Shown: piece by piece, positions 1,212-59,603 of the stretch
Layout of the letters: each line of letters begins with the position of its first letter
How positions within the stretch are numbered: the first letter of the stretch is position 1
The notes under the pieces: generated by a model
Told to the model about the DNA's origin: nothing
The model's database searches: none
The model's input: the letters and a program-made list of their open reading frames with translations, nothing else
Made by a program: the position numbers and the translations under genes
Assembly (NCBI GenBank): GCA_001038565.1
Contig: LFJO01000001.1
Span: forward strand, 310,481-374,480
Length of the DNA stretch: 64,000 bases
Reading direction: 5' to 3'
Source of the DNA: Alkalihalobacillus pseudalcaliphilus
Lineage (GTDB): Bacteria > Bacillota > Bacilli > Bacillales > Bacillaceae_D

Positions 1212-1256
1212 CTTTATTTAAAGTAACGAAAACACAAAAGGGAAGAAGAAAGAAGC

Positions 1257-1360
1257 CCGAGCAAACGCCGAACCACGGGGTTGCTGGTCGGAAAAAGAGG
1301 TAGAAAGTCCGAGCAAAAGCGTAATCGCGGGGTTGCTGGTCGGAAAAAGAGGTAGAAAGT
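1257..1360. repeat. two tandem copies of a 52-bp unit
   Basis: Two adjoining 52-bp units (1257-1308 and 1309-1360) share the core CACGGGGTTGCTGG (second copy CGCGGGGTTGCTGG) and the identical end GTCGGAAAAAGAGG. The unit resembles the 51-bp tandem units at 57720-57923 and, less closely, those at 26111 and 37499. It is noncoding and lies just left of a dispersed repeat copy. Confidence 0.85.
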
Positions 1361-1393: not shown

Positions 1394-1510
1394 ATGGCGG
1401 GCTGAGATCCACTGGCTGTGCCAATTAGCTCAGCGCCACCCCGCAGGACGCGGAGCATAATTTCCGGTAGCGACGAGCAACGCACCATGTTCGCACCAAC
1501 TTTCATAAAA
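1394..1510 (+). repeat. dispersed repeat element, partial copy
   Basis: Carries the hairpin GCTGAG...CTCAGC (1401-1434), the CCCGCAGGACGCGGAGCAT block and the terminal sequence AACTTTCATAAAAAA. The A-run at its right end serves, on the minus strand, as the T-tract of the terminator of the adjoining AraC gene. Together with the tandem units it fills the 1212-1545 gap. Confidence 0.8.
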
Positions 1511-1546
1511 AAGAGACCAAGCAACCCTTAGGCTGCTTGGTCTCTT
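1505..1546 (-). terminator. intrinsic terminator of AraC gene
   Basis: Stem AAGAGACCAAGCA / TGCTTGGTCTCTT with a short loop. On the minus strand a run of T follows (complement of the A-run at 1506-1512). Confidence 0.85.
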
Positions 1547-7604: not shown

Positions 7605-7842
7605 CCTATTGAACTTTCATACAAAACTCACATGACGAAGCCCCATTCACTTCGCCATCAACAAAAATCAAAGTAGTGGCGACTAATTAAACAGTTGGCC
7701 CGTTTACAACTCCATCACCATTAGGAGTCCGCACGATTAAAAAGGGAGCATTATCCTGTTAAGGTCGTCTATAGCAAGATGGATGACCAACTAACTTCAA
7801 GGCACAACCTATCGCCACTAAGTACACTTTCATACAAAAAAC
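7605..7842 (+). repeat. dispersed repeat element, long copy
   Basis: Starts AACTTTCATACAAAAC and ends with the same sequence. Inside is a GACGAAG...CTTCGCC hairpin. The copy is closely similar over ~220 bp to 51100-51322. Its last bases adjoin the folD terminator. It fills the gap between 7585 and 7881. Confidence 0.85.
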
Positions 7843-8760: not shown

Positions 8761-8806
8761 AAAAAAGAGATAAGAAAAATAGCTAACAACATGTAGCTCA
8801 TTCTTA
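8761..8806 (-). terminator. riboswitch expression-platform terminator
   Basis: On the minus strand, GGTAAGAATGAGCTA pairs imperfectly with TAGCTATTTTTCTTAT, followed by a T-rich run, between the aptamer and the folD ribosome site. Ligand-bound aptamer should prevent its formation, as in other ZTP switches. Confidence 0.75.
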
Positions 8807-8892
8807 CCCCTGCCCAGACGACCCGACTATAGTATGAGAACGCAGCTCCCTTGTGGTTATTTCCACTTTGTCGTCAGTTACTGTGTCCATCC
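8807..8892 (-). ncRNA. ZTP (pfl) riboswitch controlling folD
   Basis: On the minus strand the leader reads TAACTGACG, then a GTGG/CCAC hairpin, AGGGAGC, a linker and CGTCTGGGCAGGGG. These are the conserved blocks of the pfl/ZTP aptamer in the correct order, including the near-invariant CTGGGC. Outer-stem bases ACACAG and CTGCGT pair at five of six positions. ZTP riboswitches turn on folate genes such as folD when 10-formyl-THF runs low and ZTP accumulates. The position directly ahead of a terminator and folD agrees. Recognised from consensus by eye. Confidence 0.85.
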
Positions 8893-11000: not shown

Positions 11001-11219
11001 AAGAAAGTTGAATATTGTTATGAACTTGGTAGCTCTTCATTCACTTTGTTTTGTTGTTAAAAATGGATGTTATTAGTACTTGAGAATGAGAAGTCCCCAG
11101 GGCGAGTCATGTGGAGACTAATGTGGGACGTAGTGGCGAAAGCTTGAGAGCGGCTGGCTGCACCGAAAGGTTAACTTATCTCGAGAAATGTGCACCACCC
11201 ATGTAACTTTCATACAAAA
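11001..11219 (+). repeat. dispersed repeat element, diverged copy
   Basis: Contains the AT-rich linker (CTCTTCATTCACTTTGTTTTG), the ACTTGAGAATGAG block, a decayed core and the end AACTTTCATACAAAAG, which touches the actP terminator. The 10927-11268 gap holds nothing else except the phnA promoter region. Confidence 0.75.
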
Positions 11220-16131: not shown

Positions 16132-16330
16132 AATATCATCTACTTATACAACACCTCCCAATATTAATTAAAATATATCATGTTATTCAGAAAAAAAAGG
16201 ACCGTGAATTTATCGGTTCTTAAAATTTAATTACCACTTATTATCAACCCATGTAAACCCGTTATATTGGATTGTAGCGTTCGTAGAAAATTTGGTTTTG
16301 TTCTTTTTTGTTGGCTTTTCATTCATATAT

Positions 16331-16500
16331 TTTTATGAAAGTTGATGCTGATGCTCATGTGCGGAGCGTTACTTGCCGCTACCGAAATGCTCGCTCTGCG
16401 TCCTGCGGGTTGGTGCTGAGCTAAGAGGCTACGCTGCTGGATCACAGTCTGCCACTATATCCTGCAGGAGCATATCGCCTTTAGTCAACTTTCATTTTTT
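16331..16500 (-). repeat. dispersed repeat element, inverted copy
   Basis: Flanked by TTTTTATGAAAGTTGA on the left and TCAACTTTCATTTTTT on the right, an inverted pair. The core is the reverse complement of other copies, with CGTCCTGCGGG and a GCTGAGC hairpin at 16413-16449. Shows that the element occurs in both orientations. Fills most of 16132-16551. Confidence 0.8.
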
Positions 16501-23446: not shown

Positions 23447-23560
23447 CACCGTATAGATCCGCTGGCTGCGCCGATTAGCTCAGCGCCACGTGATTGTCTC
23501 GGAGCATGATTTTCGGTAGCGGTTAGTAGAGTGCCTCATCTGAATACTAACTTTCATTTA
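23447..23560 (+). repeat. dispersed repeat element, partial copy
   Basis: Hairpin CTGGC/GCCGA with TTAGCTCAGCGCCAC, block CGGAGCATGATTTTCGGTAGCGG in near-identical form (one base changed upstream) and end TAACTTTCAT. Sits 30 bp before the sigma gene ribosome site. Confidence 0.8.
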
Positions 23561-26009: not shown

Positions 26010-26110
26010 GTTCTAACTTCTATACAAAACCCGCACGGTGGAGCCAAAACGCTCCACCACCAACAAAGATGAAAGTCAGTTAACGCGAACTTAACAATTC
26101 ATAAAGGTTT
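26010..26110 (+). repeat. dispersed repeat, hairpin module A
   Basis: AACTTCTATACAAAACC, then GGTGGAG...CTCCACC arms and ACAAAGATGAAAG. In most copies the arms are GGCGAAG/CTTCGCC, so both sides changed together here. Confidence 0.8.
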
Positions 26111-26212
26111 GTGCAGATACAGACGCGAAACCACGGAGTAACTGCACAAAGAGGCAATTAATGTGTAGATGCTGAAGCCAAATCTTGGAGTAAGTGCACG
26201 AAAAGGTGCGAA
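26111..26212. repeat. two diverged tandem units of ~52 bp
   Basis: Units begin GTGCAGATAC (26111) and GTGTAGATGC (26163), 52 bp apart. Each carries GGAGTAACTGCAC-like and AAAGAGG/AAAAGG segments. The first unit shares CCACGG and AAAGAGG with the 1257 units, marking a common family. Confidence 0.65.
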
Positions 26213-26221
26213 GGGAATAAA

Positions 26222-26455
26222 GAACCAGCTAACGCCAAGGCACAACCGATCGCCCCTAAGTAACTTTCATACAAAACCGACATTGCGAAGCGGATTCACT
26301 TCTCCACCAACAAGAATGAAAGTGGTGTTTGATTCAATTTGGCTTTGTTCTTTTTCATTTTAGATGTTTTTTGAACATTAGTAATAACCCAGTGGAGCAT
26401 CATTTTCAATAGCGACAATTAACGCTCCATGTTCGCACCAACTTTTATTTAAAAG
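26222..26455 (+). repeat. dispersed repeat pieces before the two-component operon
   Basis: AACTTTCATACAAAACC at 26262, a GCGAAGCGG...CTTCTCC hairpin and ATGAAAGTGG, then at 26393 the GGAGCATCATTTTC block and end ACCAACTTTTATTT. The last copy ends just before the response-regulator ribosome site. These pieces and the two entries before explain the whole 25862-26467 gap. Confidence 0.75.
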
Positions 26456-28249: not shown

Positions 28250-28462
28250 TGTTTTGTATGAAAGTGTAACTAAATTCGATATGCGCGTCTTCGATGCTCG
28301 CTGCGAGAATGGGGGCACGCTTTCCGTAGGCGGGCGCTGAGCTAACTTGCAACGCAAGTGGATCTCAGCCTGCCCTTTCCTCCTGCAGGAGTCGGCCCCC
28401 ATTCCCTCCGCTCCGGTCGGTGCTAACCTCTTAATTAGTAATCTTCTCATACAAAACCCACA
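28250..28462 (-). repeat. dispersed repeat element, inverted copy with clear ends
   Basis: Left end GTTTTGTATGAAAG and right end CTCATACAAAAC are inverted. The core is the reverse complement of other copies. Its hairpin arms (28336-28368) are CTTGC/GCAAG where most copies have CTGGC/GCCAG. Also contains a GC-rich GAATGGGGGC...GCCCCCATTC pair. Confidence 0.82.
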
Positions 28463-28702
28463 TGGCGAAGCTCATTCACTTCGTTTTTTGTTATTACTTT
28501 TTAATGGATGTTATTTGTACTTGAGAATCAGCAGTACCTAGCGGACGAAAACATACGGAGACGCCCATGGGACATAGTGGCAGAGCCGAAATCCACTAGC
28601 GAAGCTAGTTAGTTCGGCGCCACCCCATAGGACGCGGAGCATGATTTTCGGTAGCGGCGAGTAGAACTCCGCATTCTAGCGTTAGCCAACTTTCATACAA
28701 AA
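28452..28702 (+). repeat. dispersed repeat element, full forward copy
   Basis: CATACAAAACC, a GGCGAAG arm whose partner is truncated, the AT-rich linker, GTACTTGAGAATCAGCAGTAC, hairpin CCGAA...TTCGG with inner CTAGC/GCTAG (28586-28617), the GGACGCGGAGCATGATTTTC block, and end AACTTTCATACAAAAG. Both stems differ from the usual CTGAG/CTCAG and CTGGC/GCCAG yet still pair. Lies directly before the ABC promoter. Confidence 0.85.
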
Positions 28703-37690: not shown

Positions 37691-37765
37691 GAGCTTAATG
37701 ATTAGTCGTAACCTGTAATACTGGAAGTGAACTTGACGAGATTCAATGTAACAACCATTGAAATT

Positions 37766-38092
37766 TCATATAAAACCGGCATGGTGGAGGCCCATTCCTC
37801 CGCCACCAACAAAAATGAAAGTAGTGGCGAATTTTTTAACAGTGGGCACGTCGTACATTTCACCTTTGTTTTTTCATTTGTAATGAAAGTAAAATGTTTT
37901 TTGAAATTTAGCCGTAACCGAGCGGGCGAGTTATGCGGAGACTCCCTCGGTAAAAGCTCCCGCGGGACATAGTGGCAGAGCTAGATCCAGCGGCTGCGCC
38001 GATTAGATCAGCCCCACCCCATAGGACGCGGAGCATCATTTTCGGTAGCGACGAGCAATGCTCCATTTCGTACTAGCCTTCATACAAAACAA
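37766..38092 (+). repeat. dispersed repeat element, modules A and B
   Basis: Module A has GGTGGAGG...CCTCCGCC arms (37784-37805), then ATGAAAGTAGTGGCGA and an AT-rich linker. Module B carries GCGGGCGA, TGCGGAGACTCCC, CCCGCGGGACATAGTGGCAG, the CGGCTGCGCCG hairpin, the GGACGCGGAGCATCATTTTC block and TTCATACAAAAC. With the preceding entries it fills 37354-38092. Confidence 0.82.
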
Positions 38093-47404: not shown

Positions 47405-47810
47405 AGAAATATGTGGTGTTGGTGGTGTACACCTCACAGAACGACGCGTCATTTTCGGTAGCGGCGAGTAGAACTCCGTATTCCAGCGTTAACCAACTTT
47501 CATACAAAACTTCCATGATGACTTGCCTTAGCAACTCATTATCAACAAACATGAAAGTTGGATATTGCTTTTAGCATGTTGGACTCTTCATTCACTTTCA
47601 TTATAGTCATTGTTATATGAAAGTTATTTGAACTTGAGAATTAACAGTACCCAGCGGACGAAAATATGCGGAGACTCCCGCGGGACGCAGTGGCGGGCTG
47701 AGATCCACTGGCGTAGCCAGTTAGCTCAGCGCCAACCCGCAGGACGCGGAGCATAATTTTCGATAGCGACGAGTAGCGCTTTATGTTCGCACCAACTTTC
47801 ATACAAAACC
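47405..47810 (+). repeat. dispersed repeat element, two copies in a row
   Basis: First a short piece (47440-47516) with CATTTTCGGTAGCGGCGAGTAG and end AACTTTCATACAAAAC, then module A with decayed arms and ATGAAAGTTGG, AT-rich linker, and a complete module B: ACTTGAGAATTAACAGTACC, hairpin GCTGAG...CTCAGC with inner CTGGC/GCCAG (47697-47730), GGACGCGGAGCATAATTTTC, end AACTTTCATACAAAAC. It adjoins a minus-strand terminator. Fills 47341-47810. Confidence 0.85.
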
Positions 47811-50882: not shown

Positions 50883-51322
50883 TCTACTAACTTTTATAAA
50901 AAACCAAATAGCAAAGCCCTAATCTCTCCACCATCAACAAAGGTAAAAGTAGGGTTTTGCCCTTTGACTGGCGGCTTTTCATTCACTTTATTGTTTATAT
51001 TTTAAGGATGTTATTTTTACTTGAGAATAAGCAGTACCGAGCGGATCATGATTTCGGTAGCGGAAAATAGTGCTCCGCATATGAGCATCAGCACTAACTT
51101 TCATACAAAACCCACAAGGCTAAGCCCCATTTACTTCGCCACCAACAAAGATGAAAGTAGTGGCGACTGTTCAAACTGTTGGCACGTTTACAACTCGATC
51201 ACCATCAGGAGTCGGCCTGAACAAACAGGGAGCACTGTCCTACTAAGGTCATTTATCGCGAGATGGATGACGAGCTAACTTCACGGCACAAACTATCGCA
51301 CATAAGTAACCTTCATACGAAA
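50883..51322 (+). repeat. dispersed repeat element, two linked copies
   Basis: Left copy: AACTTTTATAAAAAACC, decayed arms, AT-rich linker, ACTTGAGAATAAGCAGTACC, a shortened core with GATTTCGGTAGCGG, and AACTTTCATACAAAACCC. Right copy (51100-51322) begins there and is closely similar over ~220 bp to 7605-7842, ending AACCTTCATACGAAA. Fills 50834-51322. Confidence 0.85.
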
Positions 51323-56948: not shown

Positions 56949-57716
56949 ATGTTAATTAAGGATATATCTTTTTCTTATACAAAAAAGGAGAAGCAACTTC
57001 AAAATATACAAACAGAAATACCTCTTGGTAAAATAACGACAATCATCGGTCCAAATGGTTCGGGTAAATCGACTTTTATTCAACTAATAGCAAGGTTGTA
57101 TTTCTCCACAGAAGGGGAAATTGTGTTGGATGGCAAAAGACTTGAGGCGTATTCTGCTCGTGAATTTGCTAAAAGTCTTGCGGTCGTTCATCAGCATAAT
57201 ATAGTTCCTGATGATATGACGGTAGAAAAACTCGTTCGGTATGGACGAATTCCACATCAACATTTTCTAAAGAAAGACCGTAAAGATGATGAGAGGGCTG
57301 TTGAATGGGCATTAGAAAAAACACAACTATTGAAAAAGAAGTATCGTGCCGTCAGCCAATTAAGCGGCGGGGAGCGACAGCGCGTTTGGATCGCGATGGC
57401 ACTAGCCCAGCAAACACCAATCTTGTTATTAGATGAACCGACAACCTACTTAGATATGTATCATCAGCTTGAAATTTTAGATTTAGTTAAAAGGTTAAAT
57501 AGGGAAGAAGGTATGACGATAGTGATGGTCTTGCATGACCTGAATCAAGCAATACGTTATAGCGATCACCTTCTCGTCTTGAAGGATGGACAAAAGCTAT
57601 TAGAAGGCTCTCCAGAGGATGTAATTAATGAAGCTGTAATCCATAAAATATACGGCATACGAGCCAAAGTGAAAGTAGAGGACAATGACCTATACGTCGT
57701 TCCACTCGGCATCTAA
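56949..57716 (+). CDS. heme/iron ABC transporter ATPase
   Basis: 255 residues. Walker [11 protein letters not shown], signature QLSGGERQRVWIAMALA, Walker [14 protein letters not shown]-loop VLHDLNQA. FecE/FhuC type. Seven bases after isdF. Its end adjoins tandem repeats. Supplies energy for the IsdEF importer. Confidence 0.92.
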   Translation: MLIKDISFSYTKKEKQLQNIQTEIPLGKITTIIGPNGSGKSTFIQLIARLYFSTEGEIVLDGKRLEAYSAREFAKSLAVVHQHNIVPDDMTVEKLVRYGRIPHQHFLKKDRKDDERAVEWALEKTQLLKKKYRAVSQLSGGERQRVWIAMALAQQTPILLLDEPTTYLDMYHQLEILDLVKRLNREEGMTIVMVLHDLNQAIRYSDHLLVLKDGQKLLEGSPEDVINEAVIHKIYGIRAKVKVEDNDLYVVPLGI

Positions 57717-57719
57717 AAC

Positions 57720-57923
57720 GAGCAAACGGAGAATCACGGGGTTGTTAGCAGAAAAAGGAGGAGGAAGCCCGAGCAAACGAGGAATCACGGGGTTGCGGCA
57801 CGGAAAAGAAGGAGGAAGCCTGAGGAAACGAGGAATCACGGGGTTGCCGCACGGAAAAGAAAGAGGAAGCCCGAGCAAACGAGGAATCACGGGGTTGCGG
57901 CACAAAAAAGAAGGAGAAAGCCC
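57720..57923. repeat. four tandem 51-bp units
   Basis: Units 57720-57770, 57771-57821, 57822-57872 and 57873-57923, then a partial fifth. Core: AATCACGGGGTTG and GGAAGCC(C/T)GAG. Units differ by only a few bases (the first most). Because 51 is a multiple of three, both strands stay open across the array. Starts four bases after the ATPase stop codon. Same family as 1257-1360. Confidence 0.9.
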
Positions 57924-57956: not shown

Positions 57957-58287
57957 GGTTATAGGTTCAAACACCACACAAACCCATGGCGAAGCCCGAT
58001 TCACTTCGCCACCAACAAAGAGGAAAGTTGAATATTGTCTTTAGTATTTTGGCTCTTCATTTACTTTGTTTTTTGTTATTACTTTTTTATGATGTTATTT
58101 GTACTTGAGAATCAGCAGTACCTAGCGGGCGATTCATGCTGAGACTCCCGTGGGACATAGTGGCAGAGCTGAGATCCGCTGGCTGCGTCGATTAGCTCAG
58201 CGCCACGTGATTTTCTCGGAGCATGATTTTCGGTAGCGGCAAGTAGAGCTCGGCATATGAGTTTCAGCTTTAACTTTCATACAAAAA
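57957..58287 (+). repeat. dispersed repeat element, full A-linker-B copy
   Basis: Module A with GGCGAAG...CTTCGCC arms (57989-58011), AT-rich linker, GTACTTGAGAATCAGCAGTAC, GAGACTCCCGTGGGACATAG, hairpin GCTGAG...CTCAGC (58168-58201), GGAGCATGATTTTCGGTAGCGGC and end AACTTTCATACAAAAA. One of the best-preserved copies; it ends 10 bp before srtB and includes no promoter that I can identify with certainty. With the tandem array it fills 57717-58297. Confidence 0.87.
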
Positions 58288-58297
58288 GGACGATCTT

Positions 58298-59059
58298 ATG
58301 AAGACTCAACAAATAAAAAAGAAAAGAGGAAGTAGAATAATTACGATTATCTGCCTCCTCATTTTTATCTATTCTGCTTACAGACTAATCGAAATTGGCT
58401 ATGACTATTATCGGAATCATCAAGTATTAACAGATATTCAAGAAGTATATTCCCCAATAGAACGACAAGAACAATCAGAAGAAAACCAACAACAGCGGAG
58501 CTCATTTAATCCCTTGTTAGATATCAATGAAGACATAGTTGCATGGATAACCGTCGAGGGAACAAAGATCGATTATCCCATTCTACAATCAACAGACAAT
58601 GATTATTATTTAAATCGGAATTATTTACATCAAGAGACGCGGGCAGGTTCCATTTTTATGGACTTCCGAAATGACATTACTTTAGAAGAAGAACATACTA
58701 TTGTGTATGGACATCGAATGAAGGATGGCTCGATGTTTGCCGGTTTAAATCAATATTTAGAGCCGGAATTTTATCAAGAGCATCCTTCATTTTCCTTTGA
58801 CACCCTTTATCAAAGCTACGAGGTTGAGATATTTGCCGCCTATGTCACAACAACAGATTTCTATTATATTGAAACGGACTTTCAAGAAGAACAACAATTT
58901 GACGTGCTGTTACAAGAAATGAAAAAGCGCTCAGCAATCACTACAGATGTTGAGGTAGGCAGTAAAGATAGAATCATCACACTATCGACTTGCGATTATC
59001 AGCTAGATCGAGAGCTAGGAAGACTAGTCGTTCACGGTAAATTAACCTCAAGAAATTAA
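58298..59059 (+). CDS. srtB: class B sortase
   Basis: 253 residues. N-terminal anchor helix (~12-30). Catalytic His139 (IVYGHRMKDG), Cys232 (ITLSTCDY) and Arg242 (ELGRLVVHGKL). The insertion between His and Cys (helix ~ EEQQFDVLLQEMKKRS) is the class B mark. It should anchor NPQTG-type NEAT protein IsdC to the wall. Same direction as the isd operon, but separated from it by ~580 bp of repeats, so it may have its own promoter. Confidence 0.94.
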   Translation: MKTQQIKKKRGSRIITIICLLIFIYSAYRLIEIGYDYYRNHQVLTDIQEVYSPIERQEQSEENQQQRSSFNPLLDINEDIVAWITVEGTKIDYPILQSTDNDYYLNRNYLHQETRAGSIFMDFRNDITLEEEHTIVYGHRMKDGSMFAGLNQYLEPEFYQEHPSFSFDTLYQSYEVEIFAAYVTTTDFYYIETDFQEEQQFDVLLQEMKKRSAITTDVEVGSKDRIITLSTCDYQLDRELGRLVVHGKLTSRN

Positions 59060-59277: not shown

Positions 59278-59603
59278 GAAACTTTCATCCAAAACGCCTA
59301 TGACAAAGCCTGTACACTTCGCCGCCAACAAACATAAAAGTAAGGGTTTGCTTTTTGACCGGCGGCATTTCATTTAATTTGGTTTTTGTTTTTTTAGAAT
59401 GTAGTTAGTCAGTTTTGAACTTGAGAATTAGCAGTACCCAAGCGGGCGAGTTATGCGGAGACTCCCTCGGTACGTAGTGGCAGGCTGAGATCCAGCGGCG
59501 TAGCCGATTAGCTCAGCGCCCGCCGGAGGGTGCGTGCCCCCCATTCCCGCAGCGATCTTCGAAGAAGAGCACATGAGCTTGAGTACACTTCCATACAAAA
59601 CAA
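59278..59603 (+). repeat. dispersed repeat element, A-linker-B copy with GC-rich insertion
   Basis: AACTTTCATCCAAAAC, module A remnants, AT-rich linker, ACTTGAGAATTAGCAGTACCC, hairpin GCTGAG...CTCAGC (59484-59517), then GGTGCGTGCCCCCCATTCCCGCAG in place of the usual block (related to the 28250 copy), and end ACTTCCATACAAAAC. Adjoins the isdG terminator. Fills 59241-59603. Confidence 0.82.

Follow-up and report, generated by a model that had tools for sequence, protein, structure and literature searches.

The window, a 64,000-nt stretch of the 4.49-Mb genome of Alkalihalobacillus pseudalcaliphilus (G000:C13:310481-374480), holds many copies of a short, non-coding, multicopy and interspersed repeat with a 335-nt unit. 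Thirteen copies were matched in the window by an HMM (nhmmer), including all three hairpins in which a first-pass annotation had noticed paired changes (Table 1), and 109 matches were found in the 1.66 Mb of this genome that was searched, from which about 270-290 copies per genome are extrapolated. No description of the repeat was found in the literature on its sequence motif or on Bacillus REPINs, and no match to one window copy was found in the plasmid and phage DNA searched. The repeats form a large family of the Bacillales that is apparently uncatalogued. The window also carries a ZMP/ZTP riboswitch on the minus strand (8805-8891; Rfam RF01750, 47.2 bits).

Table 1. Copies of the repeat and of associated repeat units, in window coordinates
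Feature	Position	Strand	Details	Evidence
Copy with inverted ends TTTTGTATGAAAG...CTTCTCATACAAAAC	28252-28457	-	hairpin core 28299-28413, holding 28336-28368; alternative outer stem AATGGGGGC/GCCCCCATT	sequence; nhmmer match 28415-28252; alignment A1
Copy: linker, hairpin and end motif	28471-28702	+	hairpin core 28540-28656, holding 28586-28617	unit HMM 91-335, E 8.7e-64; A1
Full-length unit	47496-47808	+	end motif ACTTTCATACAAAA, module A, linker, hairpin core 47653-47768 (holding 47697-47730), end motif	unit HMM 1-335, E 3.7e-86; A1
Full-length unit	37763-38089	+	hairpin core ~37921-38050 (15-nt insertion)	unit HMM 2-335, E 2.8e-74
Full-length unit	57975-58286	+	hairpin core 58124-58238	unit HMM 6-335; flank listing
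Full-length unit beside terminator-like stem	59281-59600	+	hairpin core 59440-59554, variant 3' arm CCGGAGGGTGCGTG	unit HMM 1-335; A1
Copy with hairpin and end motif	16330-16492	-	hairpin 16377-16492	nhmmer; A1
5'-truncated copy	1394-1512	+	inner hairpin, tail, end motif	nhmmer 57-178
5'-truncated copy	23455-23559	+		nhmmer 69-174
Copy with degraded 3' half of hairpin	11081-11178	+		nhmmer 1-96
Unit without hairpin	26263-26454	+	exact deletion between GCGGA repeats	unit HMM 1-179 joined to 267-335
Unit without hairpin	50890-51110	+	exact deletion between GCGGA repeats	unit HMM 1-179 joined to 267-335
3' remnant (tail and end motif)	47431-47509	+	directly upstream of the 47496 unit: head-to-tail chaining	nhmmer; unit HMM
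Second unit type, ~212 nt	7612-7829	+	ACTTTCATAYAAAA at both ends, no large hairpin	repeat family D8
Second unit type, another copy	51096-51313			repeat family D8
51-nt tandem units	57704-57919	+	within composite block	repeat families D5, D9, D19
51-nt tandem units, further site	1243-1357			repeat families D5, D9, D19
52-nt tandem units	26104-26207			repeat families D5, D9, D19

Architecture of the unit

The unit, of about 335 nt, has an end motif (ACTTTCATAYAAAA) on either side, between which lie, in order, module A, an A+T-rich linker, a large hairpin and a variable tail; module A is a small hairpin that closes with ATGAAAGT. The full large hairpin comprises 37 pairs in about 117 nt and runs from AGCGG, the Chi sequence of B. 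subtilis and a conceivable cause of the orientation bias described below, to GGTAGCG; the arms noticed earlier make up only its inner third. Its internal loops are conserved, the loops AUCC/UUAG showing almost no variation in alignment A1, and the copies of this genome also carry a C.A mismatch in the hairpin. From A1, RNAalifold recovered only 11 pairs, and with the ribosum setting the full hairpin.

Units are joined head to tail and intermixed with a second unit type of 212 nt, whose end-to-end spacing of 209-213 nt recurs in the genome, and with 51/52-nt tandem units. These tandem units, inside the repeat blocks, vary in copy number in a boxB-like manner. Directly next to the 3' end motif there is very often a further unit, a ribosome-binding site or the A-run belonging to a terminator-like stem; the unit ending at 58286, for example, stops at the ribosome-binding region of an ORF starting at 58298. 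That the final AAAA of elements directly adjoins a Shine-Dalgarno sequence or the A-run of a terminator stem (e.g., at 28702, 47808 and 58286) suggests an A-run as the target of the element. One spacer of G001 reads GCAAAAGGAG and its counterpart in G000 reads ACTTTCATATAAAAGGAG.

The hairpin is missing from 13 of the 76 units compared in 1.7 Mb of this genome, the other 63 being full. In all 13 the deletion junction lies at or near the 5-bp GCGGA repeats that flank the hairpin, and in nearly all it is the same, between these repeats. The deleted units do not cluster and form no subfamily, which argues weakly for independent events since 63 full copies are in the pool. Such a recurrent deletion is compatible with slippage across a DNA hairpin.

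Covariation and distribution of the hairpin

The first-pass annotation had described hairpins in three copies whose arms differ and yet keep pairing, and these can be read directly from the sequence. At 47697-47730, outer arms CTGAG (47698-47702) and CTCAG (47725-47729) enclose inner arms CTGGC (47708-47712) and GCCAG (47716-47720); at 28586-28617 the outer arms are CCGAA and TTCGG and the inner ones CTAGC (28596-28600) and GCTAG (28604-28608); and at 28336-28368, in a copy that lies opposite to these two, on the minus strand, CTGAG (28337-28341) faces CTCAG (28364-28368) and CTTGC (28346-28350) faces GCAAG (28354-28358). Its contention that paired changes of this kind exceed neutral expectation is borne out by a set of 60 copies, in which 90.4% of cells over the 37 pairs are paired. 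Two-sided changes that still pair occupy 118 cells in 19 pairs, against 42.6 ± 8.2 in shuffled alignments (0 of 500 reached 118) and 12-21 in slid controls. Because the copies are related, a tree with a column-independent null was also built, on which 33 Watson-Crick to Watson-Crick double changes fall on single branches (12 internal and 21 terminal), against about 6 expected (1.0 + 4.7; 0 of 200 simulations).

Of 60 related genomes searched with a covariance model, 39 have the hairpin, and so do 22 of 31 genera, with named Bacillales loci in Alkalicoccobacillus, Bacillus infantis and Rossellomorea. Two-sided change across genera affects 30 of 36 pairs and 267 cells, against 72 cells in the control, in an alignment that leans towards structure because it was fitted to the covariance model and in which one pair near a bulge is visibly misaligned. 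A structure-free ranking of all pairs by covariation mainly reflected linkage between alternative 3' segments and is unusable alone. Given that the arms really do change together and that most sampled relatives in the order share the same hairpin, the folded shape matters to the element.

Three copies of a 458-bp element in the relative G044, 97-99.8% identical, carry the hairpin (L228-L230) and are bounded by 13-bp terminal inverted repeats and 7-bp target duplications (TAAGAAA, TTAATGA and TAACTAA); an IS4-family transposase fragment adjoins the same end sequence (L254). Further copies in G044 and G046 end in CACTTTTTCAGTG. Loci of G046 (L289-L294) were also observed to hold two differing hairpins of the family, oppositely oriented and about 170-510 nt from each other.

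Sequence diversity in the relative G014 is 0.051 at paired positions, 0.180 at unpaired positions and 0.444 in the flanks, and in the relative G015 the hairpins are nearly identical among copies while their flanks have diverged. Relics of spread would account for this pattern less well than constraint on each copy or homogenisation. Orthologous copies have been kept in G011 and G015, with a hairpin divergence of 4.0% (33/826) against 2.6-10% for the surrounding sequence in the better aligned pairs. Conservation within a genome is thus stronger than one would expect from that of single orthologous copies, which hints at exchange between copies.

The form in which the fold acts

Had the helix been selected as RNA on one strand, G.U pairs should be tolerated and A.C not. 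Deviations to G.T and A.C stand at 111:69 among the copies of this genome and 54:42 across genera, far under the 47:6 of a SAM riboswitch control from the same group of genomes processed in the same way, so that G.U is not much better tolerated than A.C; the one-sided changes in G014 divide 2:4. On terminal branches the one-sided changes comprise 107 broken, 77 G.T and 67 A.C, against a neutral 66:49:50, and newer mutations in individual copies of this genome look near neutral. Nearest neighbours among these copies are at best 94% identical (median 86%). The local copies are probably mostly relics of a family that looks old and probably inactive in this genome, and as much of their variation is decay, the cross-genus and G014 sets weigh more.

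The first-pass annotation held that the element works as a folded RNA or DNA structure. That the fold is kept in spreading lineages agrees with this; the evidence does not extend to an RNA function of the copies here or to a function of each single copy, and the DNA alternative, given there in brackets, fits better in view of the near-neutral terminal changes and the G.T:A.C ratio. Our verdict is that selection or maintenance of the fold operates on the element, with DNA as its likelier form. We infer that DNA is the acting form and the spread of the element the acting process, and we give a probability of roughly one half to a non-coding, modular, BOX-like or MITE-like repeat whose DNA hairpin is kept by selection on the spreading element. 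The hairpin would be kept by selection on those copies that give rise to new ones, since its fold may, as we propose, be recognised by the machinery responsible for copying, moving or homogenising the element. The recognised form would be DNA, exposed in single-stranded form at the replication fork or extruded as a cruciform.

It is rather unlikely that the repeat is instead a structured RNA, transcribed in mRNA leaders or 3' ends, whose fold affects the stability, cleavage or translation of its neighbours. Many sense-oriented copies do stop at a ribosome-binding site, 50 of the 61 copies in same-direction spacers are in sense, the BOX repeats of pneumococcus are transcribed (PMC3049150), and the copies of this genome show a mild G.T excess (156:121, and 30:18 on internal branches). 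Against this reading stand, besides the riboswitch comparison and the neutral look of recent changes, the lack of any match among the curated covariance models of Rfam at the gathering score or at E<=1, and an orientation that tracks replication even where genes give no direction. With mechanical ORFs as gene calls and the leading strand taken from GC skew, leading-strand orientation prevails 39:11 in convergent and divergent spacers (n=50, p=9e-5), and between lagging-strand genes orientation splits 8:6. It is the G.T:A.C ratios and the near-neutral terminal changes that tell against constraint at the RNA level on the copies of this genome. In G015, by halves and with the origin assumed at coordinate 0, there is no clear bias (38:23 in the opposite sense), and the orientation bias is for this reason assigned to the composite unit of the A. 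pseudalcaliphilus lineage.

Paired changes might also arise with no selection at all, if templated correction of the quasi-palindrome at replication, or gene conversion between copies, restored pairing after a first mutation. Such correction would account for what is seen, namely single-step two-sided changes, purely Watson-Crick pairing and a G.T:A.C ratio that is even, and in one orthologous pair a two-sided T-A/C-G change matches the variant of another copy (L277) of the same genome. We nevertheless consider it unlikely, since it should erase bulges and internal loops, which are among the most conserved positions and recur across genera, and since it leaves the order-wide conservation of the same hairpin unexplained. 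Templated correction between the arms, as a selection-free source of paired changes, was absent from the considerations of the first-pass annotation.

A DNA function of each copy for the host, for example as a protein-binding site for chromosome organisation selected at each locus, would suit the low paired diversity in G014, the near identity of copies in G015 and the orthologues retained in G011 and G015. It is improbable, however, given the near-neutral decay of the local copies, the many relatives that are without the hairpin and the divergence of the orthologous hairpins, which falls little short of that in clean flanks and neighbours. Very improbable, and largely refuted for this genome, is a REPIN-like element that owes its mobility and maintenance to a REP-associated tyrosine transposase (RAYT): although size, copy number and hairpin form resemble those of REPINs and several relatives carry a RAYT-like Y1 gene, this genome has no Y1 gene, no RAYT-like gene was found in the hairpin-rich G011, G013, G015 and G033, presence of the two is uncorrelated among the relatives, and no hairpin lies within about 1.5 kb of the tested RAYT-like genes of relatives.

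Spread as DNA, the reading we prefer, has its own difficulties. In this genome a transposase partner was sought through PF01797, PF01609 and NF049925, and none of these is present, nor is IS4_4; the units of the genome mostly have direct end repeats, with inverted ends in one copy (28252-28457) and no clear target duplication. The mild G.T excess, the want of a clear orientation bias in G015, and hairpins in G014 and G015 far better conserved than their own flanks also count against it.

Relation to known repeat families

The likeness to the BOX repeats of Streptococcus pneumoniae (boxA-boxB-boxC) is one of architecture. Both are modular, high-copy, intergenic and strongly folded, with variable inner units in tandem, a tendency to cluster with other repeats and a leading-strand excess, which is reported as 60.8% for BOX (PMC3049150). 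BOX is confined to a few streptococci, whereas the large central hairpin described here is common to an order, and the end motifs, as direct ACTTTCATAYAAAA repeats, are also unlike those of BOX. With MITEs the element shares its short, non-coding and interspersed nature, and the G044 version has terminal inverted repeats, target duplications and an IS4-family fragment at the same end. Unlike MITEs, the units of the A. pseudalcaliphilus genome are without clear terminal inverted repeats, target duplications or a matching transposase among the families searched, and elements with differing ends harbour one and the same hairpin.

With its hairpin of some 110 nt, which is present in tens to hundreds of copies and in relatives is more conserved than its flanks, the family recalls REPs and REPINs, from which it differs in having no RAYT in this genome, no RAYT linkage and no paired GTAG heads; two inverted REPs with such heads were not seen, GTAG occurring only at the 3' end of the hairpin (GGTAGCG). 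We tentatively raise the possibility of an order-wide family of DNA hairpins, with tens to hundreds of copies per genome, that is kept by structure-specific homogenisation or per-copy selection, without a RAYT or other known partner, and serves as the common core of mobile elements with different ends; it could then be a transposase-orphan counterpart of REPINs in the Bacillales. A large repeat family of this order is in any case tied to one conserved fold, and selection on bacterial interspersed hairpins as DNA or as RNA becomes testable. This also raises the question of what, with no known enzyme, preserves near-identity among the hairpins of some relatives despite divergence in the flanks of the same copies.

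The bcr1, Bant-1 and Bhal-1 families of Bacillus, of 72-167 bp, are likewise intergenic stem-loop repeats, compared here by description and not by sequence (PMC2267715). Three reverse-transcriptase genes (PF00078) were also observed in the A. pseudalcaliphilus genome, on contigs C14 and C13 (L225-L227).
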